Assembly (NCBI GenBank): GCA_947561715.1
Contig: OX387198.1
Coordinates: 17,422,001-17,486,000, forward strand
Direction of reading: 5' to 3'
DNA from: Ascidia mentula
Taxonomy: Eukaryota; Chordata; Ascidiacea; Phlebobranchia; Ascidiidae
DNA length: 64,000 nucleotides
A model generated the notes under the pieces. It had not been told where the DNA came from, did not search any database, and saw only the letters and a list, made by a program, of their open reading frames with translations. Positions 32,001 to 64,000 of the stretch are shown piece after piece. A program made the position numbers and the translations under genes. Numbering within the stretch: the first letter of the stretch is position 1; each line of letters begins with the position of its first letter.

Positions 32001-32290
32001 ATCTGTCTTCCCTAGCGTGCCATAACAAATCTGCCTTCTTTGCTATAGACCGAAGATCTATAAAATCCTCTTTTGCCAGATGAATACGAATTGCTTCTGG
32101 CATTTGTTGGATAAACAAATATTCAAAAAGAAAGCAAGGCTTATGTTGACCCAGCAATCCTAACATTTCGTCCATAATATCAGTAGGATTTGGATCCTGA
32201 GAACGGAGCATGTTTAGCAACTTAGACGCTCGTTCGTACCGTGACAGACCAAACGTATTAAGAAGTAGACTCAGAATGAACTAGACGAGA
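28895..32290 (-). mobile_element. Ty3/gypsy LTR retrotransposon, CsRn1-like (fossil)
   Basis: Minus-strand fossil reading right to left: a gag remnant, aspartic protease, reverse transcriptase with the FVYLDD box, RNase H, integrase with an HHCC-type start, and a C-terminal integrase tail ending in a proline-arginine-rich stretch. The style of the protease, reverse transcriptase and integrase tail (YEGPYKVVETSQKTF) recalls the CsRn1 clade. A short LTR is seen at the left end only; the right end looks incomplete. The element is broken, with several breaks, and old. It lies between ligase C's downstream spacer and ligase fragment E. Confidence 0.85.
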
Positions 32291-37903: not shown

Positions 37904-40900
37904 ATGATGCCAATTGTTCGAAAGTTTTCCAGATGTCTGTCCCGTCTCCCTGCAAGATATGTTCTCGCTTTCATGGGTTTTATGGGAATGTTCAACGTTT
38001 ACTCGTTGCGAGTTTCGCTGAGTCCGGTTATAGTTGCCATGGTGAACTATTCGGCAATCGAACTTCAAGCAAATCAACAAAACCTGTCATTAGTCAGCGG
38101 TTGTGACGACCACCTTTCTACTTTAACCCGTGGTAAGACGTATCTGTGTCAAGTAAATTTAGTTCAATTTCCGAAAAAAATCTCATCAGGAACGTTGTAT
38201 CGAGTTTTGGTGTTATAATAAATAGTAACTAGAGGCAATGGTTTTGTCCGGTATAGCGTGGGAAACGGAATCACAGGAAATTAGATGCGATGATTATGTG
38301 ACCTACACAACTTTCAATTAATCATAGTTTGTAAATGTTTTAGTTTGAAGTGAGATTTGTGTTTCCCATGTATTTGTCAGAACAAAATAATTCTTTTGCG
38401 TGGTTGTAGGCAACGCAAGCGATATCACTGCCAAGGATGGACCTTTTGCATGGGACAAAACCCTTCAAGGAACGATATTGGCTGCTTATTTTTACGGATA
38501 CGTGTTTTCTCAGGTAATATCATCAAATCATTGTTGATTCAAATCAAAGAAATCTGTAAATTTCTACTATTTTAAGGTTTCAAGTAATTCCAGGACAACA
38601 ATTTTAACTCTACAGCAAATATAAGTTTACAGTTACTCGTATCACTCTCTTGTTTCGTCATCTGGTGCATTTACCCATATTTTAGTTACGCCAGTTGTTG
38701 CACATGATTGGGTGAGCAGCACTTTAAGAAAGGTCATGATATAAAAGTTTTTGTATATCAGTTCGGTTTACCAAGTGCCAATAGACACTATAAGAGAGAC
38801 GCATGTAAAAAAATATTGAACAACTAATCTGTAACCGAAAAATAACTTTTCAACATCTTTCTTTCAGACTCCCGGTGCTTGGTTGGGCAGAAGGTACAGT
38901 GCGGTTATGGTGTGGGGGATTTCCCTGTGTGTAGCATCGCTTTTCACTTTGTTGACTCCTGTTTTTGTTTCAACTTGTGGATCGAGTGGACTTATTGCCA
39001 TGAGGGTGTTGGTTGGATTCTTTTCTGTAGGTCGTTCCTCATTAGTTTGTCATAATCAAGAACCGAATATTGTTCGTTCTGTCTAAAAAATAAAAGGTTT
39101 AAAACAGCTACATTCGCTCCGCTTACAAATACCTTTTAGAGTTAGACTTTATGGACAGTATTATTTTGAAGTGCTGCAATATTATAAGAATACTTAAACG
39201 ATGACTTTGTGTTCATGTATTTTGTGAAGTAAAAACTTCCTTTTTTGCCGTGATAATAATGCCATATTTGTTGTCAGGGAGTCTCTTATCCTGTGATGCA
39301 TGGAATGTGGGGAAAGTGGGCTCCGCCTAATGAGAGAAGCAGGCTTACTTCTATCTACTTTGCAGGTGAAATATATTGTGGCTTAAAACGCATTGAAATG
39401 TGGTCACTGCTAGATACGTGTGAAGGGTTATATCCGATATACTGCTGATTGCAAACCTGTTGTTTTATTTGATTACTTTTGGTCCAGGTGCTGCTCTGGG
39501 TTCGTGCCTAATTCTCCCTGTTGCTGGAATTATGACGAGCTCGTATGGATGGCAGTCTGTCTTCTACATGACAGGTTGGTCGGTGTAAAGAAGAAATAAA
39601 GTTGCTAAAAAAATTATCCGTGAAGGAATTGCGTCATTGGTTTGGTCGTTTCTATGGATGATGATGATGCACGACTCACCCTCTAAACATCCGAGGATTA
39701 CGGAGGGAGAAAGGAACTACATAGAATCATCCCTCCTCGATGGAAATAACACTGTAATTTAAAATATTGACAAAACTTGCTGTGTGGAAGTCTGTTGCTT
39801 GAATCCGAAATAAACGAGGGCGAAAATTTAATTTCAATTCAAAATTAGGTTTGAATTAATCATGAAATTGTTGCAGAAGTAAGCTAAAAAATTTTGAAAT
39901 TAGTTCAGGAATTTTTCATTGTTTCAGGTGAAAGAAAAGTGTTCTATACCTTGGAAGAAAATGTTACTTTCACCAAAAGTAATTTGTGTTGCTTACGCTC
40001 ATTTCTGTGCAAACATCGGTCGTTACATTGTCCTCACCATGCTTCCAACTTACTTTGTGACAATTTTACATTTTAACGTTAAAACAGTAAGTTCTGCTGA
40101 CTTTTTTTTTGCTGACTTTCTACGATCTTATTTGATATAATTATCTTAATGTTTTAAAAACTGCTTCACAGAGCGGAATTCTAAGCTCCATTCCTTACGT
40201 CACCAAATTTGTTCTAATGATGGTTTGTGGAAACCTGGCAGATTTCTTTATTGTGAGAAAAGCAAAAACTATTTACGTAAGAAAAGCGTGCGGTGCTTTG
40301 GGTGAGGCTTGATTTCAAATAATATTATCTCTTTAAATGTGTTTAAAACTAGTATTCCTGTTACAATCACAGCTTTGCTGGTACCTGCCCTTTGCATAGC
40401 ACTCGTGAGCTATGTGCATTGCAACATCCCCTTCACTATATTTTGCTTCACCCTGATTGGTTAGTGAGACTAATATGTTCATTTTAAATATGTTTTAAAT
40501 GTCAACGTGCCATTCAAATAACCAGGAGAATATAAGCAATATTTTAAGTGTATTACTAGGTTTCCAGCACTAAAAGTTTAGACAAATAAATTACGTATGA
40601 TCAATGTTTAATTGAAATAATACAGTCGACTTATTTTTTGCTTTTATTCAGTCAGCATGGATGCCTTTAGTGTACCCGGATTGAAAGCATGTTTGGTGGA
40701 TATGTCAACAGATTTCTGTGGTTTACTCTTCAGCTTTGGCAACATTCTTGGAAGCTGCGCAGGGTTTATAGCGCCACAAGTGGTTGGCTCACTAAGGGAT
40801 TCCAATGTATAAAAACTGAGTTTTAAACTAACAACAACAACTTAAATATTTCATGGTTTTGTGGTTATATGCTTTAAATAAATCTATAAAGATGAATATT

Positions 40901-41422
40901 TTTCCAAAATCATGAATATTTTTTACCTTCCCTTGACAAGAAACTGCTTTTTACTCGTGATGTACCGAAGGTTCGGTTGGCCGAATTATTCAGCCGAATA
41001 AACGATTTTGACGAAGATTCGGTTTCGGCCGAGTTATTTGTTTCGATTTGGACAAAACCGAACTTTTTCGCTCAAGAAAAACATCCTAGAATATCTACAA
41101 TAGCGTGTGGACCTTATAAATATTCGGTTTTGGTCCAAATCGAATTTAGACAATTCGGCACACCACTACTTGTTACCAGGACAAAATCGAAACCTATTAA
41201 ATTTTGGAAACAATGTTCACAAATCCAAAAATATTCGTTATTTTACAGAAGGAAGATCCATTGCAGGGGTGGCGAAGTGGTTTTTGGTTGGGTGCTGGGA
41301 TCTACACAACGGGTGCTCTCGGGTTTCTGGTGTTTGGAAGCAGCAATAAACAACACTGGGCAGAAAAAAAGGAAAGTAAAGGAAAAAATAATGAAGATAA
41401 TGAAGTTAAAACAAATATTTAA
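37904..41422 (+). CDS. SLC17-family (sialin-like) anion transporter SLC17-3
   Basis: Eleven exons with GT-AG junctions, intact frame of 499 aa: 37904-38132, 38410-38513, 38868-39026, 39278-39365, 39488-39574, 39626-39753, 39928-40086, 40172-40301, 40373-40459, 40652-40806, 41249-41422. The protein is nearly identical to SLC17-1, with a tail eight residues longer ([18 protein letters not shown]). Small differences include VPGLKAC for VPGFKAC and DMSTDF for DMSPDF in exon 10. It has the same 12-TM SLC17 landmarks ([37 protein letters not shown]). It is the only fully intact transporter of the tandem trio. Substrate unknown. Confidence 0.93.
40955..41168. repeat. hAT-like MITE in SLC17 intron 10 (shared by all copies)
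   Basis: Starts gtgatgtaccgaagg and ends attcggcacaccactac, imperfect inverted ends rich in TTCGG/CCGAA. The same element is in intron 10 of SLC17-1 (about 16972-17136, with an internal deletion), SLC17-2 (about 34670-34870) and SLC17-4 (about 46668-46868), so it predates the gene duplications. No clean target duplication remains. Confidence 0.55.
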
Positions 41423-43700
41423 GTTTATTCAGTCTGCCCATCTTACACCTTTAATCACATTCCTTGGTTTAAATTAAGTTGCCTGCAAACAATTGTGTCT
41501 TCTTTGCGTTGCTTTTTGTATTCTGTTATCTTTACCTTAAATCCAGCGATATATATATGTTCCTATTACACAGTTTACAAAACATGATATTTGTAATGAT
41601 AAGCGAACTTGATATTTTAGCCGTTATGTCAGAATACGGCGAAACAGTAATTTTAAAAGACATAAAATGTGATACGTTTTGCACATGATGGTACCATGTT
41701 GGTGTCAACATACGACACTTGAATATATCGCTTTGGTAATTTGTAAATATTGAAATCGTGCCTGAATAAAAGTAATTTGTACATGTTGTAGTTTGTGGCT
41801 GGTACGATTTGTGCTTCTAACGCGAATTTTTGAACGACAGCGGGTTTTGCCTGAAAGTGTCAGCACTTCGAAAATAGAAACAATTTTTGTGTTCTGAAAA
41901 CGTCGGTAAATCTTCACGGCGATTAATCATGGACCTTCAGCCAACGCCAACAAACGTTGCTTACGCCTATCTCTGCAGGGCGGTGTTTCCCAACCGGTAG
42001 TACGCTACGGCATTACAGGTGGACGCGAGAAACCTTTCAGTAACTTGTGGATATCGTTTGAATTTAAAAAATCGTTAGGTTACTTTGTTACACTCAACTT
42101 GTTGGCACGCGTCGAAATTGTTTACCCTCCATGTGGTACGCAACCACAAAAGGTTGGGAGTCACTGCTGTAGGGAACGCAAGACATTTCACATGAAATTA
42201 CAGATGTTACGTTCCCATCCCATTTTAACGAACTCGAAAAATAACTAGTGAAGTACTGAAACGGATTACAGAACGTGTTTAGATATTACATTATGATTTT
42301 GCTCGCATGGATTTTGCAATTTAAAAGAGAAATAGCAGTGAAATAAAACTGTTCAAATTCATCGGGTGACCGAGGTTGCCGATCGTGATCATATAAAACT
42401 TACAGTTTCCCACCAGATATACTTTTATCAGCATTCCATTTATTTTTACCTGTCAACCCTATGTCTACCTGCCTGGGAAGGCGAGCAGTGTCTGTAAATA
42501 TTTAACGTACTGATCGTTTAACGTCACTGGTTAAACTTCGTACATATGTTCATAGTCTGCAAAATGAGCAACAGGATCCTTTACTGATACAGTTGGACTT
42601 TGGACAAAGCAAAATGGTTGGAAAAAAGTATCAAGTTGCTTGATACATCAATTGATATCTTAACTAACTTGAGTGGAAATAGATGTATGCAGGCTTAAAT
42701 TTTAAACCACTACAGTATGATGTCATGACTCTTACCAAGCACTGCAAGCGGACGCGAAGAGAGTTTGCTAAGATAAACTAAATCAATACAGGTCCGATAA
42801 TTTTGGTAACTTGAGAAGATTACCATTTTACCATGTTTTTTTAGACTCTACCTTGTTTGTGATCAGATTCAAGGCATCAAAGGTAGCTGTTGCTACGTTA
42901 CTATAGTCAAGCCATGTATGTGGCTGATATGATTTGTATGAATCAGGGTCGACTTTCTGCATTGTGGCAGCACGCATGTTTTCCCAGGGCTAGTTATGAC
43001 CAATCCGCATATTTCCTGGAACTCAACTCCGGAACACCAGACGGAAAGGATACAGACGGAGTTACGCTTTCCTGCAGAGCTATAACAAGCTGCTGATACT
43101 CTTTGCTGGACAACCACGTTTTTCCTGACACTTTGTTATAAAACGCCCTCGCAGTTATTGTACGCTCTCTCTGTCTTCTTTCATTCTCGCCATCGCGCTG
43201 TTACGTTCGCAAGTACTTTTCTCGCCAACGCGCTTGGAACAGATTAAACTTAACGCCGCCTAACATTGCAAATGTGTGTTTCCTTAAATTAATAAGTCTG
43301 CTCTCGGAGTCGAATTTAGTATTAACAACAAGAACACGCAAGCAGACTTACCTTCAGCACTAGCAACCGACATGGAACCAATTGGTACGCTGCAGCATCA
43401 ACGTCAGAAGTATATTTTAGCAGATACATTCAGCGTGACAGAATTTTATGATGTTATGGCTAAATTCAGTCAACCTCACGTTGTTGTAAGGTAATGTTGA
43501 GGCGAAGTTAGAAATACTGCAAATTCCATGTTTGTGCAGAAATCCCACATCTTTATGATATTTTTCATTTAAATCACAGAAGATCTTGGATCATATTTTA
43601 GTTGTTTGCTTTTAATTACACTTTGTGTAAAATGTCATGCTGTGCTCAAAGCAAGGTGGTAAGTATATCAACAAACTTTGAACTTAATTTTGCATGAGTT

Positions 43701-46700
43701 ATGATGCCAATTGTTCGAAAGTTTTCCAGATGTCTGTCCCGTCTCCCTGCAAGATATGTTCTCGCTTTCATGGGTTTTATGGGAATGTTCAACGTTTACT
43801 CGTTGCGAGTTTCGCTGAGTCCGGTTATAGTTGCCATAGTGAACTATTCGGCAATCGAACTTCAAGCAAATCAACAAAACCTGACATTAGTCAGCGGTTG
43901 TGACGACCACCTTTCTACTTTAACCCGTGGTAAGACGTATCTGTGTCAAGTAAATTTAGTTCCATTTCCGAAAAAATTCTCATCAGGAACGTTGTATCGA
44001 GTTTTGGTGTTATAATAAATAGTAACTAGAGGCAATGGTTTTGTCCGGTATAGCGTGGGAAACGGAATCACAGGAAATTAGATGCGATGATTATGTGACC
44101 TACACAACTTTCAATTAATCATAGTTTGTAAATGTTTTAGTTTGAAGTGAGATTTGTGTTTCCCATGTATTTGTCAGAACAAAATAATTCTTTTGCGTGG
44201 TTGTAGGCAACGCAAGCGATATCACTGCCAAGGATGGACCTTTTGCATGGGACAAAACCCTTCAAGGAACGATATTGGCTGCTTATTTTTACGGATACGT
44301 GTTTTCTCAGGTAATATCATCAAATCATTGTTGATTCAAATCAAAGAAATCTGTAAATTTCTACTATTTTAAGGTTTCAAGTAATTCCAGGACAACAGTT
44401 TTAACTCTACAGCAAATATAAGTTTACAATTACTCGTATAAGTTTCTTGTTTTGTCATCTGGTGCATTTACCCATATTTTAGTTACGCCAGTTGTTGCAC
44501 ATGATTGGGTGAGCAGCACTTAAAAAAGGTCATGATATAAAAGTTTTTGTATATCAGTTCGGTTTACCAAGTGCCAATAGACACTATAAGAGAGACGCAT
44601 GTAAAAAAATATTGAACAACTAATCTGTAACCGAAAAATAACTTTTCAACATCTTCCTTTCAGACTCCCGGTTCTTGGTTGGGCAGAAGGTACAGTGCGG
44701 TTATGGTGTGGGGGATTTCCCTGTGTGTAGCATCTCTTTTCACTTTGTTGACTCCTGTTTTTGTTTCAACTTGTGGATCGAGTGGACTTATTGCCATGAG
44801 GGTGTTGGTTGGATTCTTTTCTGTAGGTCGTTCCTCATTAGTTTATCATAATCAAGAACCGAATATTGTTCGTTTTGTCTAAAAAATAAAAGATTTAAAA
44901 CAGCTACATTCGCTCCGCTTACAAATACCTTTTAGAGTTAGACTTTATGGACAGTATTATTTTGAAGTGCTGCAATATTATAAGAATACTTAAACGATGA
45001 CTTTGTGTTCATGTATTTTGTGAAGTAAAAACTTCCTTTTTTGCCGTGATAATAATGCCATATTTGTTGCCAGGGAGTCTCTTATCCTGTGATGCATGGA
45101 ATGTGGGGCAAGTGGGCTCCGCCTAATGAGAGAAGCAGGCTTACTTCTATCTACTTTGCAGGTGAAATATATTGTGGCTTAAAACGCATTGAAATGTAGT
45201 CACTGCTAGAATCGTGTGACGGGTTATATCCGATATACTGCTGATTGCAAACCTGTTGTTTTATTTGATTATTTTTGGTTCAGGTGCTGCTCTGGGTTCG
45301 TGCCTAATTCTCCCTGTTGCTGCAATTATGGCGAGCTCGTATGGATGGCAGTCTGTCTTCTACATGACAGGTTGGTCGGTGTAAAGAAGAAATAAAGTTG
45401 CTAAAAAAATTATCTGTGAAGGAATTGCGTCATTGGTTTGGTCGTTTGTATGGATGATGATGATGCACGACTCACCCTCAAAACATCCGAGGATTACGGA
45501 GGAAGAAAGGAACTACATAGAATCATCCCTCCTCGATGGAAATAACTCTGTAATTCAAAATATTGACAAAACTTGCTGTGTGGAAGTCTGTTGCTTGAAT
45601 CCGAAATAAACGAGGGCGAAAATTTAATTTCAATTCAAAATTAGGTTTGAATTAATCATGAAATTGTAGCAGAAGTAAGCTAAAAAATTTTGAAATTAGT
45701 TCAGGAATTTTTCATTGTTTCAGGTGAAAGAAAAGTGTTCTATACCTTGGAAGAAAATGTTACTTTCACCAAAAGTAATTTGTGTTGCTTACGCTCATTT
45801 CTGTGCAAACTGACTTTTTTTTCTGACTTTCTACGATCTTATTTGATATAATTATCTTAATGTTTAAAAAACTGCTTCACAGAGCGGAATTCTAAGCTCC
45901 ATTCCCTACGTCACCAAATTTGTTCTAATGATGGTTTGTGGAAACCTGGCAGATTTCTTTATTGTGAGAAAAGCAAAAACTATTTACGTAAGAAAAGCGT
46001 GCGGTGCTTTGGGTGAGGCTTGATTTCAAATAATATTATCTCTTTAAATGTGTTTAAAACTAGTATTCCTGTTACAATCACAGCTTTGCTGGTACCTGCC
46101 CTTTGCACAGCACTCGTGAGCTATGTGCATTGCAACATCCCCTTCACTATATTTTGCTTCACCCTGATTGGTTAGTGAGACTAATATGTTCATTTTAAAT
46201 ATGTTTTAAATGTCAACGTGCCATTCAAATAACCAGGAGAATATAAGCAATATTTTAAGTGTATTACTAGGTTTCCAGCACTAAAAGTTTAGACAAATAA
46301 ATTACGTATGATCAATGTTTAATTGAAATAATACAGTCGACTTATTTTTTGCTTTTATTCAGTCAGCATGGATGCCTTTAGTGTACCCGGATTCAAAGCA
46401 TGTTTGGTGGATATGTCAACAGATTTCTGTGGTTTACTCTTCAGCTTTGGCAACATTCTTGGAAGCTGCGCAGGGTTTATAGCGCCACAAGTGGTTGGCT
46501 CACTAAGGGATTCCAATGTATAAAAACTGAGTTTTAAACTAACAACAACAACTTAAATATTTCATGGTTTTGTGGTTATATGCTTTAAATAAATCTATAA
46601 AGATGAATATTTTTCCAAAATCATGAATATTTTTTACCTTCCCTTGACAAAAACTGCTTTTTACTCGTGATGTACCGAAGGTTCGGTTTGCCGAATTATT

Positions 46701-47132
46701 CAGCCGAATAAACGATTTTGACGAAGATTCGGTTTCGGCCGAGTTATTTGTTTCGATTTGGACAAAACCGAACTTTTTCGCTCAAGAAAAACATCCTAGA
46801 ATATCTACAATAGCGTGTGGACCTTATAAATATTCGGTTTTGGTCCAAATCGAATTTAGACAATTCGGCACACCACTACTTGTTACCAGGACAAAATCGA
46901 AACCTATTAAATTTTGGAAACAATGTTCACAAATCCAAAAATATTCGTTATTTTACAGAAGGAAGATCCATTGCAGGGGTGGCGAAGTGGTTTTTGGTTG
47001 GGTGCTGGGATCTACACAACGGGTGCTCTCGGGTTTCTGGTGTTTGGAAGCAGCAATAAACAACACTGGGCAGAAAAAAAGGAAAGTAAAGGAAAAAATA
47101 ATGAAGATAATGAAGTTAAAACAAATATTTAG
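43701..47132 (+). pseudogene. SLC17-4, transporter copy with exon 7 truncated
   Basis: Exons equivalent to SLC17-3 at 43701-43929, 44207-44310, 44664-44822, 45074-45161, 45284-45370, 45422-45549, 45724 on, 45883-46012, 46084-46170, 46363-46517 and 46959-47132. Exon 7 loses its second half and its splice donor to a deletion of about 90 bp after the AHFCAN segment. The reading frame meets TGA at once. All other exons and splice sites are intact, and coding differences from SLC17-3 are few, so inactivation is recent. A product stopping after about six or seven TMs, or one that skips exon 7 (53 codons, in phase), is conceivable but unlikely to transport. Confidence 0.9.
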
Positions 47133-49782
47133 GTTTATTCAGCCTGCCATCTTACACCTTTAATTACTTTCCTTGGTTTAAATTAAGTTGCCTGCAAACA
47201 ATTGTGTCTTCTTTGCGTTGCTTTTTGTATTCTGTTATCTTTACCTTAAATCCAACGATATATATATGTTCCTATTACACAGTTTACAAAACATGATATT
47301 TGCAATGACAAGCGAATTTGACATTAATGATAAGCGAACTTGATATTTTAGCCAGTATGTCAGAATACGACGAAAAAAATTTGAATTCGTTCCTGAACAA
47401 AAGTAATTTGTACATGTTGTAGTTTGTGGCTGGTACGATTTGTGCTTCTAACGCGATGTTTAAACGACAGCGGGTTTTGCCTGAAAGTGTCAGCACTTAC
47501 GGAATAATTTTCTGCTCAAACACGTTTTTACTTTCAAACCGAAAGTCGCACAAATGTTTGTCGGAGCCAAAACTTTTGGGATAAGTTGTGCTTTGTAATT
47601 TACATACACCTTATTATATTTATGACAAAAAATATATGTAAAGCTGATTGGGATCTGTGCACGAAAATGGCATTGTTCGAGACCAGCACTGGTAAATTCA
47701 GCACACGACTGGCGAAATCAAAACAAAAGTCGCTACTCCGAAAATAGAAACAATTTTTGTGTTCTGAAAACGTCGGTAAATCTTAGGCGATTTAATCATG
47801 GACCTTCAGCCAACGCCAACAAAGGTTGCTTACGCCTATCTCTGCAGGGCAGTGTTTCCCAACCGGTAGTACGCTACGGCATTACAGATCGCACGCGAGA
47901 ACCTTTCAGTAACTTGCGGATATCGTTCGAATTAAAAAAATCGTTAGGTTACTTTGTAACACTCAACTTGTTGGCACGCGTCGAAATTGTTTTCCCTCCA
48001 TGTGGTACGCAACCACAAAAAGGTTGGGAGTCACTGCTGTAGGGAACGCAAGACATTTCACATGAAAATACAGATGTTACGCTCCCATTGTATCTACTTT
48101 ATGTTTAATTTCAGAAATTGAAAATAATATGAATGGTTTCTCCTTATTTCACCACAAATTCCCTCCTGCGGTGTTTCTGCCTACCAATCCCTTATGACAC
48201 CCCTATAAGTTCTAACAGAGAGTTAACAACACTTTAAAGTGCATGTGACACGGTCATGGCAAATTTGCGTAAAACTGAAGGTACATCCACAACAAACATA
48301 TTTCCAAAGTTTTTCGCTTCTACGTCAACTTAATAAAGGATAAAACTGCACTAAAAGTAGCGGCGGCGAATAATCGTTAACCTTTTTCGCTGTAGCGAAT
48401 GTGACGTCAATACAAAGGATTCAATAAATGTATTGTTGGCATGTAGGAAAAGCGCCTTACATTAAAGATACGAAATAGTTTTAAATATAGGGTAACCCCG
48501 GTACGTTACCCGATAAGTCCAGGGTCAATCTGTGACATCACACAAAAATGAGTTACTGTGACGTCACAAATAAAGGCTTATTTATCTACGATTGTTGGCA
48601 AACGAAAAGGCTCAGCAGCAACAACATCACTCTGTACTTCAATATGATATGGTGCAAATCTTCGCTCAGTTACATCACATGACGTCGCTTTAGTTGTGAT
48701 GTCATAACTTAAACCTTACCTTCATGGTGGCGCAACGTGATGTTTCTTATATTTCTTGTTGCGAACTATATTACGAAAAATACCATGGTGGTTGATTGTG
48801 TCAGATTGCGATTGATTGTAATAACGAACTCTATCAATTACTAGTGAAGTACTGAAACGGATTACAGAACGTGTTTAGATATTACATAATGATTTTGCTT
48901 GCATGGATTTTGCAATTTAAAACAGAAATACAGTGTTCATATTTATCGGGTGACCGAGGTCGCCCATCGTGATTATATAAAACTTACAGTTTCCCACCAG
49001 ATATACTTTTATCAGCATTCCATTTATTTTTACCTGTCAACCCTATGTCTACCTGCCTGGGAAGGCAAGCACTGTCTGTAAATATTTAACTTACTGATCG
49101 TTTAACGTCACTGGTCAAACTTCGTACATATGTTCATAGTCTGCAAAATGAGCAACAGGATCCTTTGCTGATACAGTTCGACTTTGGACAAGTTGTGCGC
49201 AGATCAAAGGAAAATGGTTAGAAAAAGTATCAAGTAGCTGATACATCAATTGATATCTTAACTAACTTGAGTGGAGATAGATGTATGTAGTTTTATATTT
49301 CAAACCACTACAGTATGACGTTATGACTCTTACCATGCGCAAGCACTGTAAGCAGACGCGAAGAGAGTTTGCTAAGATAAACTAAATCAATACAGGTCCG
49401 ATTCAAGTACGAAATGTACTTCACTTTTAAGTCACAGACTGGGTTATGTCCACGCATAATTTTGGTAACTTGAGAAGATTACCATTTTCTTAGATATTAA
49501 TCAGGAGAATTGTGTTTCGTTCCGGTTCATTGATGCTTGAGTGTTTATTTTGCGCCAACTAATGATTAGTCAGCAAAGTGTACGTCACAAACTAAGCAAA
49601 GGTCAATAGACCAGTGTTACGGTTCGATAAGTATTTTGAATGAAGAATGTTGGGTTTGCGATTCAAATATCATATGAATATACACAGTATTTAGTAGTGT
49701 GTGCAGTGCGATGTGTTTGAGCGTACATTGTTACGTGACAATAACAGCCTGTTCGTGGACTGGATTCGAACAAAAAAAGCAA
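47133..49782. other. Spacer between SLC17-4 and ligase D
   Basis: Collinear with 17368-20380, without the 142-bp array and without the 225-bp MITE. It contains a dispersed 0.5-kb repeat copy at about 48230-48775. No gene recognised. Confidence 0.5.
48230..48775. repeat. Dispersed about 0.5-kb non-coding repeat, copy 2
   Basis: Shares ordered blocks with 11848-12400 (aaagtttttcg, tgacgtcacaaa, tgatgtcataactt). Non-coding; class unknown. Confidence 0.6.
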
Positions 49783-50227: not shown

Positions 50228-50247
50228 GGTGCGAATAATTGGTAGCA

Positions 50248-51789
50248 ATGGTGCTAAAAAGTCCGTTTCCAGATGTTGAGATTCCACAAGTTCCCATCGC
50301 TCAATATGCTTTAGAAAAGATGGAACACTTCGGCAACTCTGTGGCTTTGGTAGATCCTTACCATGATCAATCGTGGACATTCAGCCAACTTCGCCAACAG
50401 TCAATTGAGTTTGCATTCAAACTACGTTCCATTGGTGTAGAGAAGGGTGATGTTGTTGGCTTGGTGGTTGACTTCCATCCAAAATGCTTTACTTTAATAC
50501 TTGGAATTATGTTGTGCAAGGCTACACTGGCTACTGGTAATATCAACGCTGTGCCAAAAGATATTGCCAAACAAATGAAGAAAGTGAATGCAAAGTTTTG
50601 TATTTGCGAAAACCAAGAATTGAAGAAGGAGTTAAAGTCAGTACTTGAGCACGTTATTATTTATGATCTTGAGGATTTCATAAATTTTGAAGATGATTTT
50701 GGGAAAAAGAAAGTAGTGGAAGAAATATTATCATCGAACGGTGTTGATATTCATGAGGATCCATTAATAATCGCATTTACAAGCGGTTCAACTGGTGAAC
50801 CAAAAGCTCTTGTTGTGACAAATGCCAATTTCATGCATTCAATCGCAGTTTATGAATTTGTTGTAAACCTGCAAACTGGTGAATGCATTTTAACCGTTTG
50901 TAAACAACTACATATGATGGGATTCTTGAGTTTTCTTGTCTACATTGTTTTCGGAGTGAAACATGTTATAACAACAAATCTTCCACCAGAGTTGTTCATC
51001 CATTGCGTGAAAAATTATGATGTTGTTGGCGCTGTTATCAGTGACTTTGTGACGTTTAACAAAATTACAAACGAAGCGGTTTTGGAAAGAAACAAAAGCC
51101 TTAGGTTTCTACTAGTTGGTGGAGCATCTACACCCAAAGCGTTAATGCAGAAAGCATGTGATAAGTTTAATGTGATTGTGACAAGTGGTTATGGAAGTTC
51201 TGAATGTGGGTCAATTTCGTGCTCTCTAACAAGACAAACTCCATTTGAAAGTGTAGGAAAGCTTTCTCCCAATGTTCAACTTAAAGTGATCGATGTTGAA
51301 AACGGGTCAAAACTTGGTCCTGGAAAACATGGAGAATTTTATGTGAAGAGTCCAGGTGTTTTCAAAGGATATTTAAACAACAAAGAAGCAACTGAAGAAG
51401 TGTTAGATGAATGTGGTTGGTTTCGGACAGGAGACTTGGGATATTATGACGAGCACGGAGTCGTTTACGTGGTCGACAGACTTAAGAACGTCATCAAATC
51501 TCACGGAAATATGGCGGTTTTTCCAACCCAGCTCGAAGAAGTACTTCTGTCTCATCCACGTGTGGCGGAAGCAGTTGTTGTTCGTACAGCTCATCCAGTT
51601 TATAATGAGGCGGCAAAAGCTTTCGTTGTCAAAAAACACGACATTTTGACAAAGGAAGAGTTGCTTAATTTCTACAACGCACAAGTGGCAGAATATCAGC
51701 AACTCTTTGGTGGTTTGGAATTTATTGATCAAATTCCAAAGACTACGGGTCTTGGAAAACCCCAAAAGAGTATATTGGAGTCTCTTTAA
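50248..51789 (+). CDS. Acyl-CoA synthetase / 4CL-luciferase-like AMP ligase (ligase D)
   Basis: Intronless, intact, 513 aa, beginning MVLKSPFPDVEIPQ at the ATG 22 bases after a conserved splice acceptor. It has the same ANL layout as ligase A: P-loop [37 protein letters not shown], and an A10 loop reading PKTTGLGKPQK. That loop has one residue more than ligase A and the usual family spacing before the catalytic GK lysine. The region after residue 120 diverges most from A (ELKKELKSVLEHV against ELQQELDSELKLV), followed by a short acidic-basic insertion (FEDDFGKKK). The C-terminus SILESL is not a clear peroxisomal signal. It should form an acyl-adenylate and acyl-CoA in the cytosol; acid unknown. 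Neighbour of SLC17-4; C is its closest relative. Confidence 0.93.
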   Translation: MVLKSPFPDVEIPQVPIAQYALEKMEHFGNSVALVDPYHDQSWTFSQLRQQSIEFAFKLRSIGVEKGDVVGLVVDFHPKCFTLILGIMLCKATLATGNINAVPKDIAKQMKKVNAKFCICENQELKKELKSVLEHVIIYDLEDFINFEDDFGKKKVVEEILSSNGVDIHEDPLIIAFTSGSTGEPKALVVTNANFMHSIAVYEFVVNLQTGECILTVCKQLHMMGFLSFLVYIVFGVKHVITTNLPPELFIHCVKNYDVVGAVISDFVTFNKITNEAVLERNKSLRFLLVGGASTPKALMQKACDKFNVIVTSGYGSSECGSISCSLTRQTPFESVGKLSPNVQLKVIDVENGSKLGPGKHGEFYVKSPGVFKGYLNNKEATEEVLDECGWFRTGDLGYYDEHGVVYVVDRLKNVIKSHGNMAVFPTQLEEVLLSHPRVAEAVVVRTAHPVYNEAAKAFVVKKHDILTKEELLNFYNAQVAEYQQLFGGLEFIDQIPKTTGLGKPQKSILESL

Positions 51790-53340: not shown

Positions 53341-54750
53341 TTGGGTTAAAAAAGCCCCCAAAAATTGGGTCGGTCCATGGGAAACCCCCCCCCCCAAAAA
53401 AAAAACAATCGCGTGGCAAACGTTAATTTCAAACAAATCTGGACAGGTCGCTGGAGATAGATCACATAATACACAAACAATTTAAACAAGACTGAAGACT
53501 TCACTGAACACATTGTGTTAGAATCGTGTGGCAAATATTGGTCGTCAAAACACAATTTACGTTTGAATTTACTCATTTTGAAATGAGAGGCTCTGACGTA
53601 TGCGCGTGCCCCCCGTAACATATTGAATACCATACTCAAGTCTAATTAAGAGATTCTGAAATAAAATGACGTAATCTGACTGTTTTGTGGCCAATGTTCA
53701 TAATATCCTGAAAGTTACGTACGTAAAACACGTAACAAAGAGTAAATTTGCTCAATCACTGATAGGAAACCGATATTACATGTGTATGTTTCATAACAAT
53801 TACTTGAAAATAAAACTTAATTCAATATTAAGTAGCGTACATAGCATTTGTACATTGTAGACAGCTCATCTTCCAGGCTTCAACCAGGTGGAAACGAGTA
53901 AATAACTTATGCATATCTATCATGTCTTTTATGGAGGAATAAAATCAACCTTATTGGAATAAAACAGACAAGGATTATGACCTCGCATTGCATTTGCTTA
54001 GAGATTTGAATTGTTGGCGAAGTATTATAACTCAATTGATTGATTAATCAACTCATTTCTCTAAATAAATAAGCTTCATACAATTTGTGCGAAAGTGGGG
54101 TTATTTCATTATACGCTAGCTCGTAGCTAAGTCAGACATATTCCTCCAAACTAAGCTCTGGCGTGAAGAAAATGTCAGGTATCCTAAAATATTTATTATA
54201 AATGTATCCGATTGTCTTCCGCTTTAGTTTTTGGAAACATTGACATATTAGTACTAAGAATTAGCTTTTCTGTCAAATCGCGACATATGGTGTACCTAAG
54301 TGGAAATCGCGTTTCACGGTGCGTTGTGACTCAACAGAGGAAGCTGATGGGAAGTCACCACTTGGAAATATTCTTTATCCTGGTAGGAGGGAGGAAACGT
54401 GGGTGAATTCTCTGCTCTGCAAATAATTTACAAACAAAGTTGCGCAATAAACCCATCTTTATGTGGTTTGCAACCGTGATAATATCTTTTCTCAAAACAT
54501 TATTAATCGCCACAAACTGGCCAGAAAGCATTCATAATAAACTTCTTCCAACATCGTGTGTTTTTCTTCCTCGTTGTATTTCGAGAGAAAATTTAACATT
54601 GAATTCAAAGCGAAAAAACCATCAAACTTTCCATGATGTGAATTTCAGCGAACGCAATTATTGCTTCCAGTATACCCCTTGATGGGATCTTTAATAGTCA
54701 CACGAACAAAGATGGCGTAGCGAGGAAGATCTCTTTCCTGTCTGGGTTGA
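53341..54750. other. Intergenic, no gene recognised
   Basis: Begins with an 11-C run followed by a 10-A run at about 53386-53406. The rest is AT-rich, without coding signals I trust. The promoter of the secreted peptide gene should lie at its right end. Confidence 0.4.
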
Positions 54751-54758
54751 GATATTAC

Positions 54759-54765
54759 TTATAAA
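54759..54765 (+). promoter_or_regulatory. TATA-like box of the secreted peptide gene
   Basis: ttataaa lies about 30 bp before an initiator-like ttcagtg (about 54791). A short 5' UTR exon then ends at 54815 (agaag|gtaagc), and an intron runs to the acceptor at 54871, immediately before the ATG. Confidence 0.45.
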
Positions 54766-54871
54766 CTCGCTCAATCGACGACTCGATACATTCAGTGTAT
54801 TGGAGACACAAGAAGGTAAGCAATGTTTGGTTGAACGTTTTAAACACGATCTCCAATGATATTTTCCGCAG

Positions 54872-56104
54872 ATGAAATCGAAAACGTTGCTGACTTTGAT
54901 GCTCGTGTTTCTGCTTGTAATTGATTTGGGAGAATCGTGGGGCGGAAGGTAAGCACTTTTACATGAAGTGGTAAATAGTTTGTTGATTCACAATAAAATG
55001 TCGCTGTTTGTCCGCTGAACAGATTACTCATTTCAGTGTATTTGTTAATAGCTTCATTTAAAATTATACGGGCAGAAAAATTGGGTGTGTAAATGTGGAC
55101 GATTGAAAAAACAGTTTGTGAACAACTGCTTTAGGAAAGAAACTTTGTTCACCCAGTGGTGCCACTTAGCGAGTCGAAATAACGCAAAATTTGCTCTAAA
55201 ATATCCAAAACACAAATCGCATCTCAACATTTGCCAAACTGTTGTAGTTCCCCCGCAGTTTGAACCAAATTTAAGAGACTGATTATAATATTCTTTCGGA
55301 AGGTAAAACGTTTGTTGCGATTCAGAGGATTCATGATCTTATTCGGTAAAAACTCGTAACAATTTCCCACTCACCCATTTTGCAATTTTGTTGCTATTTT
55401 TGCATCAGATATCTGCAACGTCTGACAAACTAACGTCTGACCGCAATTTAAAAACGCTCCTCTGACTGTATAAACTGACAAGAAACTTCAATAAAAAAAA
55501 ACTTTGCAAATTCAATGAAAACCAACGTCAACGAAATAATCAACAAATATACGATATTTTACTACCAAAACGCGCAAGGTACGTTGTCGCTTCCCAAATA
55601 TTTACCGTCTGCGCGCTCACTTTGCCTTATTGACTGGAAGTCTTAAAAAACATTTTATGTCACACCTAATTACGCGACGAAGTTGTCTTTAAAAAGTGCA
55701 TTGAGGTGATAAATGACATTGCGGCACAGAACAAACGTAATGTAGTTCACTAAATATGCACATTAATATTTATCGTTAAGTTCATTATACCGTTTGCAAA
55801 AATTTTGTTTTAGGCGAAGAGTTTGGCAGTTCCAAACTAATAGAGGTAAGGTTGCTATATATTTTTAACGACTAACAATTTCGTTTAACACACATGGATT
55901 CTGTTAAAATTTAACTTATTCCTGACTTCTGTCCAAACATTTTGATAAAAGAAGGATCCGTACGAGCCTAACATTTTCTGTTTATGATATTTCTGTGTTG
56001 AAGGGGATGGTACAGATGTGAATACAAAAGAAAATTCTGATATTCTTGATGTTATCAAATATCTTCGTGAAAAGGAAGATGAGGAACAGGAAAGAACCTA
56101 TTGA
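54872..56104 (+). CDS. Small secreted peptide precursor, antimicrobial-peptide-like
   Basis: Three coding exons with canonical junctions and matching phases, 54872-54948, 55814-55845 and 56004-56104, encode 69 aa. A hydrophobic signal peptide (MKSKTLLTLMLVFLLVIDLG, cleavage likely after GES) is followed by a short basic aromatic stretch (WGGRRRVWQFQTNRG, net charge about +4). The acidic C-terminal part is about 32 residues long (from DGTDVNTKENSD to EKEDEEQERTY). Signal, cationic segment and anionic propiece is the layout of ascidian antimicrobial peptide precursors; a bioactive neuropeptide-type precursor is the alternative. A 5' UTR intron and TATA-like box support a real transcript. Too short for ordinary ORF scans because the exons are small. 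No homologue is recognised by sequence. Confidence 0.65.
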
Positions 56105-56559
56105 GGAAATTTACAATTAAAGTAAGGATTAACAATATATTCGATGTATTATTAGAAACAGGTTGGCATCCGTCTTTGCGCATTCGCATAACAGATACCT
56201 CGCGTGAACAAAAAAATACTTATTTTTTTTTTATTTCCACAGCCATTAATTATATTCTATTACAGGTTGATCTTCAAGATTCAACTTTATTCAAAGCATT
56301 GCGAAATAAAATGAATAACGTACTTGTAAGCTATATTTAACAAAAATTCCGGACAGATTAGTCAGTGTATGCTGATGTTGCTGCTGGGATTAGAAACTGT
56401 CCTTCTGACACATAAACAAAGTATCAGATTATCAGATGAAAAGGAAAGTCAAATAAAATCGAATTAAATGCGAAAAAAAGTAGATGACGATCTTACAGGC
56501 GAAATACATGCAGATATTGTAATGTGATTGTGTCTGCTTTGATTTTGCAATTTATTTAA
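56105..56559. other. 3' flank of the peptide gene
   Basis: Probably includes the 3' UTR of the peptide gene. A 79-codon open stretch (56101-56340) begins over the stop of the peptide gene and has no recognisable features. Confidence 0.35.
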
Positions 56560-57054: not shown

Positions 57055-58100
57055 TCAATTTTTTTTACTATTTGAAAATGTGCAGATGATCAATGAGGCC
57101 GCTACTGATTCTGCCTGATTTAAACCCTTAAATTCTGAACCAAAACCATGACAATTTGACAGGTTCACAAATGACCATATGAGGTGAAATGCAACATACC
57201 TATATTTCATTGCAAAGTTGTAAAGCACTGCAGTTGCAACAATAACAGACAAAGCTGTTTGAACATGGACTCTTAAGCCTTGTGAAAGACAGGGAAATAT
57301 CCTTTTCCACACTCCAAACATTCTTTCAATGGTGTTTCGTGTTTTCACATGGGACTTGTTGTATTTAATTCTGACAGAGGTTTGGGGAGTTAAAAATGGT
57401 GTCATAAGGTAAGGTTTGGATGGGTAACCACCATCACCAAGAAGAATATGTCTGTATTGTCCACAATCTTGAATTTTCAAATATTCTGGAGTCATGTACA
57501 GACCCTCTCCATCTGGCAACAATATTTGTTATAGACATGTCTGCATCACAAACAGCCTGAATAATAATTGAAAAATATCCCTTTCTGTTTCTGAATAGTT
57601 GAGCATCTGGGCCCCCCAGAAGACTGTATTTTTATATGGGTGCAATCAAGAGCTCCTATTGCACCAGGAAACTCAGCTTTCTTATAAAACTTTCTTGATT
57701 GCCCAAGTACATCTTCTGGACTACTTGGAAAGAAATAAATTGACCTCTTTTTCTTGCAATAAGTTTGCTGATTTTTTTTACCAGTTAGTAGGCTGTGAAA
57801 CGCTTTCCAAATCTCCTGCAACTATTTGATAACAGCCAGTAGCATAAAATTTTAAAACTACAGTGAACTGTAAAATTGGGGGCAAAGTCAAACCTCTGTT
57901 TGAATCTCTTTGCAGATCATTCACCAACAGTGGCATAAATTGGTACAGTGTTTCTTTTGTAAGCCTATACCGCATATAAAACTGATTGTTTGTTAGGCTT
58001 TCAACAGGATTCTGTCCATCAGTAAATATTTTCGGATTTTTGGTTCCTTTTTTCTTTGAATTACCTGCAGAATTGCTATTGCCTCCATCTTATCAATTGA
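57055..58100 (-). mobile_element. PIF/Harbinger DNA transposon, decayed transposase
   Basis: HARBI1-like nuclease pieces on the minus strand: an N-terminal piece (57778-57975, YRLTKETLYQFMPLL), GAIGALDCTHIKI with the first catalytic aspartate (57546-57821), then LLGDGGYPSKPYLMTPFL with the second aspartate and KTRNTIERMFGVWKRIF with the glutamate (57055-57522). The three parts are in different frames, so there are at least two frameshifts, one near 57590 and one near 57450. The stretch between them still reads ADMSITNIVARWRGSVHDSR in a third frame. A possible short first exon begins at about 58090 (MEAIAILQ|gt). No Myb-like partner gene or terminal repeats found. Inactive as it stands. Confidence 0.8.
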
Positions 58101-58784: not shown

Positions 58785-61700
58785 CTCCCCCCTCTATGTC
58801 GAGGCACTCCCGTGCAGACTTGTGGGGAATAGCGCTGAGTGGGACGGCGATTTACGCGAAGGCGACTGGCAATTCCGTTGTCATCGCGAGAGTTCGGTGC
58901 CTGCGCATTTTCTTCGTTTTCGGTGATATTGGTCCAGGTCACCACTTGTGTCGTGGGGTCTCCCGTAGGTGGCAATGTCCGGACTTCCTCTTCCACGGTT
59001 GGTCGCCCCTCCGTCTTGTCCGCCCCTTCTATAATGGACGACTTTTCGGTGTCCTTCTTCGTCCTCGATCTCATACGTCACGGCTGACTTGATGTCCACC
59101 ACTTTGTACGGGCCTTTGAACGGAAGGTGGAATTTCCTCGCCATCCCTGGCTTCACCGCGGGGTCTGTTAAGAGAACAAAATCACCCACATTCAGCGGTT
59201 TGCCCCTCTTATGTCGGTCGTACTGCGACGTCATGCGCCGTCTTTGTTTCCGCAACGTTTCACGGGCCACCTCTTCAGCTAACTGGAGCCTAGCGCGTAG
59301 CCCTTCCAGTGGTTCCGGGAATGGATCGCGCTGGGCGGGAGCACCGAATAAATCTGCTGGGAGTCGTAGAGCGTGGCCATTTAACAAATAATGTGGTGAC
59401 ACACCTGTACTTTCATGGACACTCGCATTATAGGCGGCGACCACCGCCGACAGCGCCTCATCCCAGCACCGTTCATCGTGCTGTACGTAATTCCGTATCA
59501 TGGAGAGTATTGTTCGGTTGTTGCGTTCGCACGCACCGTTTCCTTGATGATACGCGGTCGTCCGGGTCTTTCGGCAGCCCATCAACCGTGCTAGCTCTTT
59601 AAATAAAATAGATTCAAAGTTTGCACCTTGATCGGAATGGATTACGTCCGGGACGCCGTGTACCGTAAACCAACGATGAAACATTGTCCCGGCTACGTCT
59701 TCTGCCCTTTGCGTCCTGAGTGGCCATGCGCGCACGTATTTAGTGAATATGTCGCATGCAACCAATACGTATTGATTACCACTGGAGGTTGCCGGAAGTG
59801 GCCCCATTATGTCCACCTCGACCAGCTCCATTGGTTGCATCTCCCCGGAAGGAACCAACGGAGCGCGGGGCCTTGCTGTAAACTTCTTACTTCTTTGGCA
59901 GTGGCGACAGGAACGGACATATGCCTCAACGTCGGTCCTCCAACCGCCAGAAGTGTCTTTCTTCGATCTTCGAACAGGTTTTTGCCATCCCGAGATGGCC
60001 ACCGCCAAGTGGTGCGTCGTGCAAAACGGACGTAATCGTTTCTCTGGTGGTCTGTGGAGTGATAAGGCGGTACACACACGCGCCCGGTTGATGTAAGGAG
60101 TCACTCGTTTGATACAACAAGTTGTTTTGAACGATTAACCGCCCGAATTGCCCCCAAAGGTGTTTGGTCATCGTCGAGGCAGACCTAACAGTTCGGTAAG
60201 GTGGTCTCTTGCCAAGGTTTAACCACCTAACAGCCGGGGAAATTTCGGGGTCGTCGTGTTGGGCTTTACTTATTTCCTCGTATGGCAGTCCAATGGAGCG
60301 ACGCAAGTCTAAGGAATAAACTTCTTCTGTACCGTTGCGACGACTGTTTGTGCCGTAGGAAGTGTTGACCGGAAATGGCATTGCTTCTTCCTCTTCATTG
60401 GTCAAGCGGCTTAGTGCATCGGCGTTGCCGTGTTTTTTTCCCGGGCGATGAATCAGTGTGAAGTCGTACTCTGCGAGGCGTTCAAACCAACGCGCACACT
60501 GGCCATACATCTCCCGCGACTTCCACAACCACCGGAGTGACGAATGATCAGTCCGCAGTAGAAAGTGCCTGCCAAGCAAATAACACCTATACAATTTAAC
60601 GGCGTATACTACAGCTAACAATTCTTTTCGCGTAGTAGAATAATTGCGCTCAGCTTTCGATAGCGATTTGCTGCCATAGGCGATCACATGTTCTTTGCCA
60701 TCTACTACCTGGGACAACACACATCCCACCGCGTTATTGGAAGCGTCGGTATCTAATACAAAAGTCGCTGAAAAGTCCGGGTGCTGTAGAATAGGTGCTT
60801 GTGTAAGGCGTCGCCTTAGTTCGTCGAATGCATCTTGTTGCTCTTCCCCCCATTTGAATGTTCGACCCTTTTCTGTAAGCTTGTGTAACGGACCAGCCAC
60901 CCGAGCATAATCTTTGATAAATCTGCGATAATAAGAAGTAAGGCCAACGAATTGTCGAATGTGTTTAACACTCCTCGGGGTAGGCCAGGAACTTACAGCA
61001 TCTATTTTGCCGGGATCGCAAGACACTCCTTTATCGGAAATCACATGCCCTAAAAAACTTACTTGCGATTGAAACAAATTGCATTTGATCGGTTTCAACG
61101 TGAGACCCGCCTCTACTAACCGATCGAGTACTCTACTTAAACGATCCATGTGCTTTTCAAAGGTAGTGGCATACACTATAATATCGTCGAGGTATGCCAA
61201 AGCGCCGCGCCATTCCATCCCGTTTAGAACTAGCCGCATTAATCTCTGAAAACTAGCCGCGGCATTGCACAGTCCCATGGGCATAACATTAAACTCGTAA
61301 AGTCCCATGTGCGAAGAAAAAGCGGTTTTCTCTCGGCAGTCATTCCGCATTGGAATCTGCCAATAGCCTGACTTAAGATCAAGAGTTGAGAAAAACTTCG
61401 CATGAGCCATTTCGTCTAAACTATCGTCCACCCTTGGTATCGGGTAGCTACACTTTTTCGTAAGAATGTTTATTTGCCGGTAATCCACACAAAACCTCGT
61501 CTCACCAGACTTTTTCCGAACCAGAACGACGGGACTTGACCACGGCGATTGCGAAGGGCGCACCAAACCCTGTTGCTCCATCTCCCCGACAATTTCCTCC
61601 ACTTTCCTTTTGTTTCCTGGGGCCATCCGTCGTGGCGGTTGTCGGACCGGTGCATGATCACCTGTATCTATCGCGTGTTCGGCCAAGTGGGTCCGACCGA

Positions 61701-63657
61701 GATCCCCTGTCTCCGTGCAAAACGCGGCTTGTTTCCTAGAAATTAATTCTTCGACACGTTTTTTCTGAGCGGACGTCAGTCCCTCATTAATTGAAACGGA
61801 ATCTATAATCCTACCCGCTCCTGAGCGGCCGGCCTTTGGGGTTCGTTGCGCTGTTGTCGTGATCGAAGCAATATATTCACTGTTGATGAATATATTCACT
61901 CTGTCTTCGCAATCACAACCTGGCGATGGAAAGGATTCCACTGCAACACAGTTGTCGTCAGACGAACATGTGACGTTGCCGGAGGTCAGTATCGGAGTCA
62001 GGCGAGCAACATGCGAATCTGCAAGCAACCTCACCGGGTCGTCGGACAAATTTGCTAAAAATACCGGAACAGTTGCTTGCGAAGTTATAGTTACATAAGT
62101 TCCGCCGAGTAAACTATTTCGGAGTGTGAAGTCAAGGTTTTTCTCAACAAGAACTTGCATCGCACTAGGGACATTTTCTGGGGGATTCCTTATGAATGAA
62201 CCAACAACGCATACCTCTGAAAATGGTGGGATCGTCACATCTTCTTTTAGACGTACATCTGTGCGTTTACAGTGGAAGGGGGAAGAAAGTAGAGCCGCGG
62301 AACCCGATCCAACGTAGAACAACATTTTTTTGTAACAGAGTTGGCAACCGTTGCTCTGAATGAAGTCCAGGCCTAAAATGCATTCTTCTTGAATGTAGCG
62401 TGTCACGCACATTCTTTGCGATAAGCGTAACCCGCAAATCCTTACGTCAACATCGACAGCGCCGTCCATCAAAATAACTTCTCCGGAAGCGTTGACATAC
62501 TCTGTTTCCAACGGTAAGGGTTGTAACACCCCATTAGGTGTAGCTTTAAGTGACTTATATACGCGACGGTTTAATACGCTTATTGTCGCGCCAGTGTCTA
62601 CTAAAGCGCACACGATCCGATCTCCCAACAATATGTTCAGGTAGCGATTTTGTTTGTTCGTCTTGGCTATTCCTTGCACGGTAACCCGCGACTTACTTGG
62701 TGTCGGCCTTTGCTGGGCGGTGTTCACCACCTGCGATGGGGATTGTTGACTTGATGGTCTAAAAGATGTAGATTTAATCGTCCTATCGCCGCCGCGTGGT
62801 CGACAACAATTTCTTGCCATATGGCCACGTACCCCACAGTTGTAGCAAGCGCTTGTAGACTTACTTGGGCGCAACCTTGGTGGTCCGGGTCGCTGGAGAA
62901 CATCGAAATCACGGCGCATGGCATCGAGCTCGTTACGAAAGCTATCAATAGATCGTTGCACATTCGAATTAAGCTCGACCAAGTGTTTTTGAGTTCGACC
63001 AACTCAGGATTTCGGGTTGAACTTATCGATGTAACGGGAAGAGAGCCGTGTGACACATCGGACTCGACGACCATTTTAGCACAAACACTGAAATCCCGCT
63101 GTGGACACTTTTGTCTAACTGAGTCCACTAGTTGGCGGTCCTTGAGACCCCGCAATAAAGCGAGAAGCATCACCTCATTTTTAATGGCGGCGTCGGCTGC
63201 CCTCGGGTACGCACGGGCGGCTAAAGCTTCTATGGCATACACGAAAGTTCTACCGTCTTCTTGTGGCCCTTGGATTCGGTTGACCAACTGGCTTCTTAAC
63301 GCGCATTGGCCAGTGGCGTTTACTTCGACTGCTTTGGCTTTAGTAACTATCTCTTCAAATTGCATTTCGTACAGATTATCGGCCCCGTTTTGAATATCCC
63401 ATATAAAGTCTTTGTCAACATTTTTAAAGAAAAGGTGCTTCTTAACCTCTTCGGTAGCCTTTATGCTGGCGCAATAAGAATTAAAAACTTGTAAAAATGA
63501 GTTAAAATTGTCTCCATTTCTAAAATGCGGGGGAGTCATGCCGATGTTAAAAGCCATCTTCCGGATCAAGAAAAAATATATCGAACCTTGGTCCTTTCTC
63601 GTGTGACAGGAACTCTTCTTCTGTGGTTGCAGCGTCCTGGCGTGCTCGCCAATTTCG

Positions 63658-64000
63658 TGTTACGCTTCTTAAATAAACGCTTCCCAAGGTCCTCAGGACG
63701 CTGCATTAACGGCTAACCACCAGCCTGTTCCAGCACAACGGTTAAACAATGCGATTCAATCTTGTTCATAAAACTATAAAAATTGCACAGCTGAATCACA
63801 ATCTGCCCAAACAGTCTGCCCTCCGATTTTTCTTAGCGTCTCGTGTTAGTTCGCCAGTCATTGGCCCAACAGTGTCACGTGAGAGGAAGGGAGCTAGCGC
63901 TACGATATCAAATCAACGTGCGGTGACTGGTGCGTTCGAGACACTTAAATAATAAATACAAAAATATAAATCAACACAAAACATTTAAATGAACAGGTGG
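63658..64000 (-). repeat. 5' LTR of the Ty3/gypsy element (cut by the window end)
   Basis: Starts with the same tgttacgcttctt as the left LTR and is collinear with it to the end of the window. A tgg-initiated stretch (tggcgagcacgcc on the minus strand) a few bases inside is a possible primer-binding site; the tRNA is not identified. Confidence 0.88.

Follow-up and report, generated by a model that had tools for sequence, protein, structure and literature searches.

Tunicates, the closest sister lineage to the vertebrates, depend on innate defence. Peptide genes made of three tiny coding exons, like the Ascidia mentula gene described here (W), are difficult to annotate, and among the papers listed from one open-access library, as judged from titles and the beginnings of abstracts, there was no report on antimicrobial peptides of A. 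mentula or on the gene cluster described below. Among ascidian peptides, clavanins are made with a signal peptide, a short mature peptide and an acidic tail, a layout that is also predicted for W.

In Ciona, the LCAMP criteria are a signal peptide, next to it a cationic region of net charge 3-10 with an amphipathic alpha-helix, an anionic C-terminal region of net charge -3 to -10, a size of 50-100 residues and no Cys after the signal peptide, together with expression in haemocytes and microbicidal activity (PMC7387483). Two synthetic peptides, KH.C1.640 and KH.C7.94, are active on yeast as well as on E. coli and S. aureus, and negative on P. aeruginosa; for KH.C1.640 the MIC is 12.5 uM on yeast and <3.125 uM on each of the two susceptible bacteria (PMC7387483). 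Four other Ciona candidates, three of them Arg-rich, were inactive or weakly active on E. coli (PMC7387483), so that activity cannot be read from an Arg-rich core. Styelins (Styela) and botryllin (Botryllus) are prepropeptides cut to a short basic peptide (PMC7387483, PMC9966394) and have a KHK motif in common (PMC9966394), and cleavage before D and DD is described for styelins and clavanins (PMC7387483). Finally, the sequence of CiEMa, a 14-mer of Ciona haemocytes, was confirmed by tandem mass spectrometry, and its authors consider cleavage at Gly|Asp followed by amidation to be its likely origin (PMC10888236).

Gene structure at the locus

The window, that is the whole stretch of 64,000 nucleotides that was analysed, consists of bases 17,422,001-17,486,000 of C2 (chromosome 2) of A. 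mentula; the genome searched comprises 195.8 Mb in 79 contigs. W has five intact paralogues in this genome, C1 on chromosome 1 and R1, R2, R3 and M on chromosome 2. Its features, in window coordinates, are as follows.

54700..54787, + strand: proximal promoter, in a block (54700-55001) with 79% identity to C1
54760-54765, + strand: TATAAA box, 28 nt 5' of the inferred start of exon 1
54788..54815, + strand: exon 1 (5'UTR), start inferred, donor AAG|GTAAGC
54816..54871, + strand: 5'UTR intron of 56 nt, size matched in C1, R1, R2 and R3
54872..54948, + strand: exon 2, coding for the signal peptide MKSKTLLTLMLVFLLVIDLGES and the start of the core (WGG and part of R), ending in phase 2
55814..55845, + strand: exon 3, 32 nt, coding for the remaining cationic core RRRVWQFQTNR, first codon split, phase 2 to phase 1
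56004..56104, + strand: coding part of exon 4 (acidic tail), with homology to the acidic exons in C1 and R1-R3
56102-56104, + strand: stop TGA, exon 4 continuing to 56121
56122..56265, + strand: 3'UTR intron (GTAAGGAT...TTACAG), with a counterpart in C1, R1, R2 and R3
56266..56326, + strand: exon 5 (3'UTR), 3' end inferred, AATAAA at 56305-56310

The initial annotation, made from the letters of the window, had proposed three small coding exons with correct phases, preceded by a UTR intron and a TATA-like box, and all of these are present. A splice scan of the locus with generic splice weights returned a single model, with the same coding junctions as those first proposed, and none of 400 dinucleotide shuffles of the sequence downstream of the signal peptide yielded any model under the same criteria; as the scan demands an acidic last exon, it is the layout that is tested here and not splicing itself. 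GT-AG ends are present in all four introns, the phases agree, and the three coding exons contain neither frameshifts nor premature stops, the stop lying a few codons before that of C1. Exon 1 is identical to that of R1 and R2 over its 28 nt and to that of C1 at 25 of them, exon 3 has the same length and phases in C1, and exon 5 is identical to its C1 counterpart at 50 of 58 aligned nt, with 3 gap columns. The extent first given to the gene is right for the coding model and has to be enlarged by the 3'UTR intron and the fifth exon with its AATAAA. Since five intact paralogues share the same architecture, comparison at the sequence level confirms W as a real multi-exon gene. Two other scans of gene structure were dropped, one without splice weights, the models of which were unreliable, and one with strict cut-offs, which missed most genes.

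Matches to intron 2 found elsewhere in the genome (L007, L008, L042, L043 and two unlocated) map to 55442-55551 of the window, a stretch that looks like an interspersed element. The window also contains the following.

943-2481, - strand, and 50239-51789, + strand: long open acyl-CoA-synthetase-like ORFs (PF00501 and PF13193 scanned on 943-2481 only)
10852-11238 and 27283-28125: fragments reading like acyl-CoA-synthetase-like ORFs
21609-24470, - strand, and 25101-26653: reverse-transcriptase-like ORF, its RVT_1 match being below the Pfam cut-off, and partial duplicates of it on either strand; we assume that the ORF at 21609-24470 is perhaps a Penelope-type element
58881-63659, - strand, and 29482-32280, - strand: Gypsy-type retroelement ORFs, the second set split over several frames; RVT_1, RNase H and zinc knuckle in 59926-63003, the part scanned
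57055-57528, - strand: DDE_Tnp_4 transposase fragment, about 0.7 kb downstream of W
34629-35165, 40896-41477 and 46648-47163: three ORF-bearing repeats with near-alike translations, at intervals of about 6 kb, suggesting that they arose by tandem duplication

The MKSKT family

The paralogues, found by searching the genome at the DNA and protein levels, and one truncated copy are located as follows.

Chromosome 1, 6.6236 Mb: C1
C2 17.494 Mb, same strand as W: R1 (L010)
C2 17.505 Mb, same strand as W: R2 (L011)
C2 17.507 Mb, same strand as W: R3 (L011)
C2 17.510 Mb, strand opposite to W: M (L038)
Contig C1:14,525,003: truncated copy, tail end and 3'UTR only

R1-R3 and M thus lie 17-33 kb downstream on chromosome 2. 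All six members of this MKSKT family (W, C1, R1-R3 and M) have the signal peptide, the 5'UTR intron, a phase-2 and a phase-1 intron and the acidic exon. The 5'UTR intron, 56 nt long in the other five, has 72 nt in M; exon 3 measures 32 nt in W and C1, 38 nt in R1-R3 and 35 nt in M; and a 3'UTR intron was modelled in W and four of the five paralogues (C1 and R1-R3), none being modelled for M. The family signal peptide reads MKSKTLL(T/S)L(L/M)LVFL(L/F)VIDLGES, with that of M slightly different. In R1-R3 the intron-2 donors are weak (GTTAAAAC, GTCAAAAC) and the splice scan gave no model, the gene models of these three copies resting on alignment to other copies; they may give a product that is not spliced and lacks the acidic tail.

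The predicted cores differ widely in charge: net +20 in R1 (IRFRRRWSRRRIRRRSIIRRRFFYRRRCHYYRRRRW-GK-D...), +19 in R2, R3 and M (the last reading WWRRRR(YSRRR)4HWYRRRF-GK-D..., with a fourfold YSRRR repeat), and +2 in C1 (LSRRFWRDTKSEQS). Most of the family is predicted to encode very basic secreted peptides. An Arg-rich block in exon 2 is found in R1-R3 and M and is absent from W and C1, which, judged by this comparison, are reduced members of the family. Loss of the block in the ancestor of W and C1 would be the simpler history, as M, the most divergent copy, retains it. By their charge, R1-R3 and M would be stronger antimicrobial candidates than W, and they are Arg-rich like KH.C7.94 (PMC7387483). 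The cores of R1-R3 hold one or two Cys, unlike the Ciona linear peptides, and R1-R3 and M are longer than 100 residues, so that these copies would fail the Ciona LCAMP screen (PMC7387483). We treat the likeness of the family to KH.C7.94 and KH.C1.640 as resemblance: striking by eye for KH.C7.94, it was not significant beyond composition, the score of the best comparison being reached by 96 of 2000 composition-preserving shuffles.

Conservation between W and its sister C1 is mosaic. Identity is 86-92% in exon 1, intron 1, the signal peptide and exon 5 but falls to 50-67% in introns 2-4 and exon 4, and exon 3 is barely alignable. Across chromosomes, intron 1 is about as alike as the signal-peptide exon (window 54739-54937 against the paralogues). 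This pattern suggests that a 5' module underwent gene conversion or was shared recently.

The initial annotation had named coding constraint as a check on the gene, and the outcome differs between its parts. For the signal peptide, the comparison of W with M counts 12.5 synonymous changes on 15.5 sites and 5.5 non-synonymous changes on 50.5 sites, and when the independent pairs W-C1 and R1-M are pooled, 12 of 20 changes are synonymous (P = 0.0008), the excess in the pair W-C1 alone being not significant (P = 0.1). On these substitution counts, the signal peptide is under purifying selection within the family. The tail shows no synonymous excess between W and C1 (dN/dS 1.77, compatible with neutrality, P = 0.22), no significant constraint between W and R2 (P = 0.18) and weak constraint between C1 and R2 (P = 0.024, uncorrected, with three pairs compared). 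In a neutral simulation the tail stayed open in 35% of runs, and was both open and of net acidity at least 5 in 8%. Judged from the signal exon, the reading frame is secure throughout the family; the tail supports it only moderately. The charge of the core is not conserved, being +4 in W and +2 in C1.

The predicted precursor of W and its interpretation

The predicted W precursor has 69 residues: a signal peptide of 22 residues, with an n/h/c pattern by reading, a core of 14 residues and net charge +4 (WGGRRRVWQFQTNR(G)), and an acidic tail of 33 residues and net charge -6, with no Cys after the signal peptide. The antimicrobial-precursor layout first claimed for the gene is therefore there, in the form known from Ciona: the precursor falls within the LCAMP limits for signal peptide, cationic charge (at the low end of the Ciona range), anionic charge, length and absence of Cys, and has the same signal-cationic-anionic order as the Ci-MAM, Ci-PAP, KH.C7.94 and KH.C1.640 precursors, the KH.C1.640 peptide being, like the W core, a 14-mer of net charge +4 rich in Trp, Arg and Phe (PMC7387483). 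The core has no His, unlike clavanins, and the Clavanin model PF05452 gave a single match in the genome, on C72, with an E of 5.9, below the cut-off. Nor does the core have a styelin-like helix, although loci that we take to be styelin-like (e.g. L068-L072) share the mini-exon pattern of W. The KHK motif is absent from the W protein by reading, no Pfam family matches this protein, and the solved structures offered nothing usable for it or for the relatives tried.

C1 and R1-R3 use a last acceptor 3 nt upstream of that of W (TTGAAG|GGGATGG). This acceptor reads CAG|AAG in C1, R1 and R2, TAG|AAG in R3 and TAG|AGC in M; in W the paralogue-type CAG has been changed to TTG, the next AG being 3 nt on. 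The shift leaves the frame intact, removes one Glu and gives rise to NR-G-D, and the RGD tripeptide, found in none of the five paralogues, stems from it alone. An alternative acceptor, the CAG at 56016, scores -3.8 against 0.6 for the site at 56004. The tripeptide pointed out in the initial annotation is thus present in the predicted precursor, but the integrin-binding meaning considered with it is not supported, since RGD is absent from the paralogues and sits at the presumed cut site; a Gly|Asp site for processing and amidation is the better reading. If the rule proposed for CiEMa applies, the mature W peptide would end in ...QTNR-amide. W would then resemble CiEMa, a 14-residue amidated haemocyte peptide with the same proposed processing, in length and cut site; CiEMa is not Arg-rich, unlike W (PMC10888236).

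We lean, with moderate confidence, towards W being a five-exon gene whose product is a secreted prepropeptide like those of the linear cationic antimicrobial peptides of ascidians. W would be transcribed and its signal peptide removed; the acidic tail would neutralise the basic core in storage, probably in haemocyte granules; a cut before the Asp of ...NR-G-D, with amidation, would give WGGRRRVWQFQTNR-amide; and this Arg/Trp/Phe peptide would bind and disrupt microbial membranes. The reading draws on the Arg-rich cores of the paralogues and on the occurrence of the same exon pattern in styelin-like precursors, and KH.C1.640 is the nearest peptide of measured activity with which W can be compared. 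An antimicrobial role is plausible for W and, by charge, better founded for its paralogues. The strongest objections to it are the modest core of W and the poor conservation of that core in C1.

Alternatively, W could be a paralogue undergoing drift and decay: its frame would still be open and it might be transcribed, but the antimicrobial core would have been lost together with that of its sister, leaving a peptide of no importance. We give this a minor but appreciable chance. W lacks the Arg-rich exon-2 block and has lost the acceptor of its paralogues, its tail shows no detectable constraint against C1, the core of that sister is only +2, and the fragment at C1:14,525,003 shows that copies of this gene do decay. 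Against decay stand the intact coding exons, the four GT-AG introns, the nearly unchanged signal peptide and an acceptor 3 nt downstream that preserves the frame, and a tail that remains open and still acidic arises in only about 8% of neutral simulations. A more speculative possibility, which we put forward tentatively, is that the family remakes its products by cassette: the module of promoter, 5'UTR intron and signal peptide would stay almost unchanged among the copies of both chromosomes while the core exons turn over, drift of the acceptor would create the Gly|Asp amidation point, and W and C1 would form a new short-core class with a function of its own.

That W encodes a secreted haemocyte signalling peptide, processed like CiEMa, and not a microbicide seems rather unlikely, as the Arg-rich cores of the paralogues point to a membrane-active origin; the predicted mature length and Gly|Asp processing do match the proposal made for CiEMa (PMC10888236), and the charge of the W core is modest. 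An integrin-binding peptide acting through RGD is very improbable. The predicted precursor carries the motif if the acceptor at 56004 is used, but it is the product of a 3-nt shift seen in no paralogue, would itself be cut by the predicted processing, and belongs to a class of short tripeptides that are frequent by chance. We give equally little credit to chance exons without a gene: the splice signals are individually ordinary and the exon-3 acceptor scores low (-2.1), yet the five intact paralogues, the constrained signal peptide and the failure of all shuffles to yield a model effectively refute this. Our preferred reading remains that of an antimicrobial-type precursor.

Other signal-peptide loci in the genome

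Further signal-peptide loci were traced from a weak match of M, and then by protein searches with the resulting genes. Among the matches listed, and after merging, 57 loci had a signal-peptide match with E <=0.01 in at least one search and 25 further loci had one at E 0.01-1, numbers to be read with the caveats that Arg-rich composition can inflate match scores and that a score was given to the best candidates only. This census of 57 and 25 loci takes in the six MKSKT genes. It admits matches that begin in the first 10 query residues and leaves out tail-only matches; C70:15527261, C71:2138350 and C72:11726971, where the matches begin later, are omitted. Precursors with Arg-rich starts form clusters in the following regions.

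C73, 10.91-10.95 Mb and 12.78-12.81 Mb: tandem clusters of Arg-rich precursors (L059-L062, L064 and L067-L073)
C67, 7.80-7.89 Mb: cluster of Arg-rich precursors including L052

In 20 of the 22 loci that were read (L054-L075) an Arg-rich stretch comes after a hydrophobic leader, the exceptions being L074 and L075; L055 and L056, L065 and L066, and L069-L071 are overlapping or near-identical. L069 (...GGWIRKAVRVVRRGYRLYKKYKKPIHFAARLI-GD...) and L060 have an Arg-rich start, then a helix-like stretch, then G-D and an acidic tail. We take the helices of several such loci (e.g. L069 and L060) to be cecropin/styelin-like, and L068-L072 are presumably styelin-like precursors. L054 is a variant in which the acidic stretch begins inside the signal exon.

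The weighted splice scan of these MNK genes took 18 loci and used the start pattern ATGAACAA, so that L062, L063 and L073, with the start ATGAATAA, fell away and 15 loci were covered; L054, L056 and L066, being the same genes as, or near-copies of, others, stood outside it. In the scan of 15 MNK loci there were 16 starts, 12 with a model and four without (two in L055, and those of L057 and L065). A 32-nt exon 3 between phase-2 and phase-1 introns, as in W and C1, occurs in nine of the 12 automatic models, of which L068-L072 look like recent duplicates and are therefore not independent. L052 has a 26-nt exon 3 in the scan and one of 32 nt in a model made by hand, L067 has 42 nt in the scan and 32 nt in a looser scan, and L058 has a 36-nt exon 3 with phases 1/1. 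The mini-exon pattern was not seen in the MNKS and VEESEG subtypes (L054-L058 and L065). When the MKSKT and MNK signal peptides are compared, 5-21 of 20000 full shuffles reach the score, as do 447-1552 of 20000 region-preserving shuffles. Common descent of the two types is suggested by their gene structure, and the signal peptides are no more than suggestive of it.

Starting from W, the analysis arrived at a repertoire of clustered precursors, Arg-rich and styelin-like, in a single solitary ascidian, and the recurrent mini-exon signature could be used to find more precursor genes. One member of this repertoire, L067 (C73:10935473, minus strand), is unlike the others seen: its Arg block is followed by a four-unit Pro/Arg/Leu-rich repeat (GLRRPLLRIGPL-like) and then by the acidic tail.
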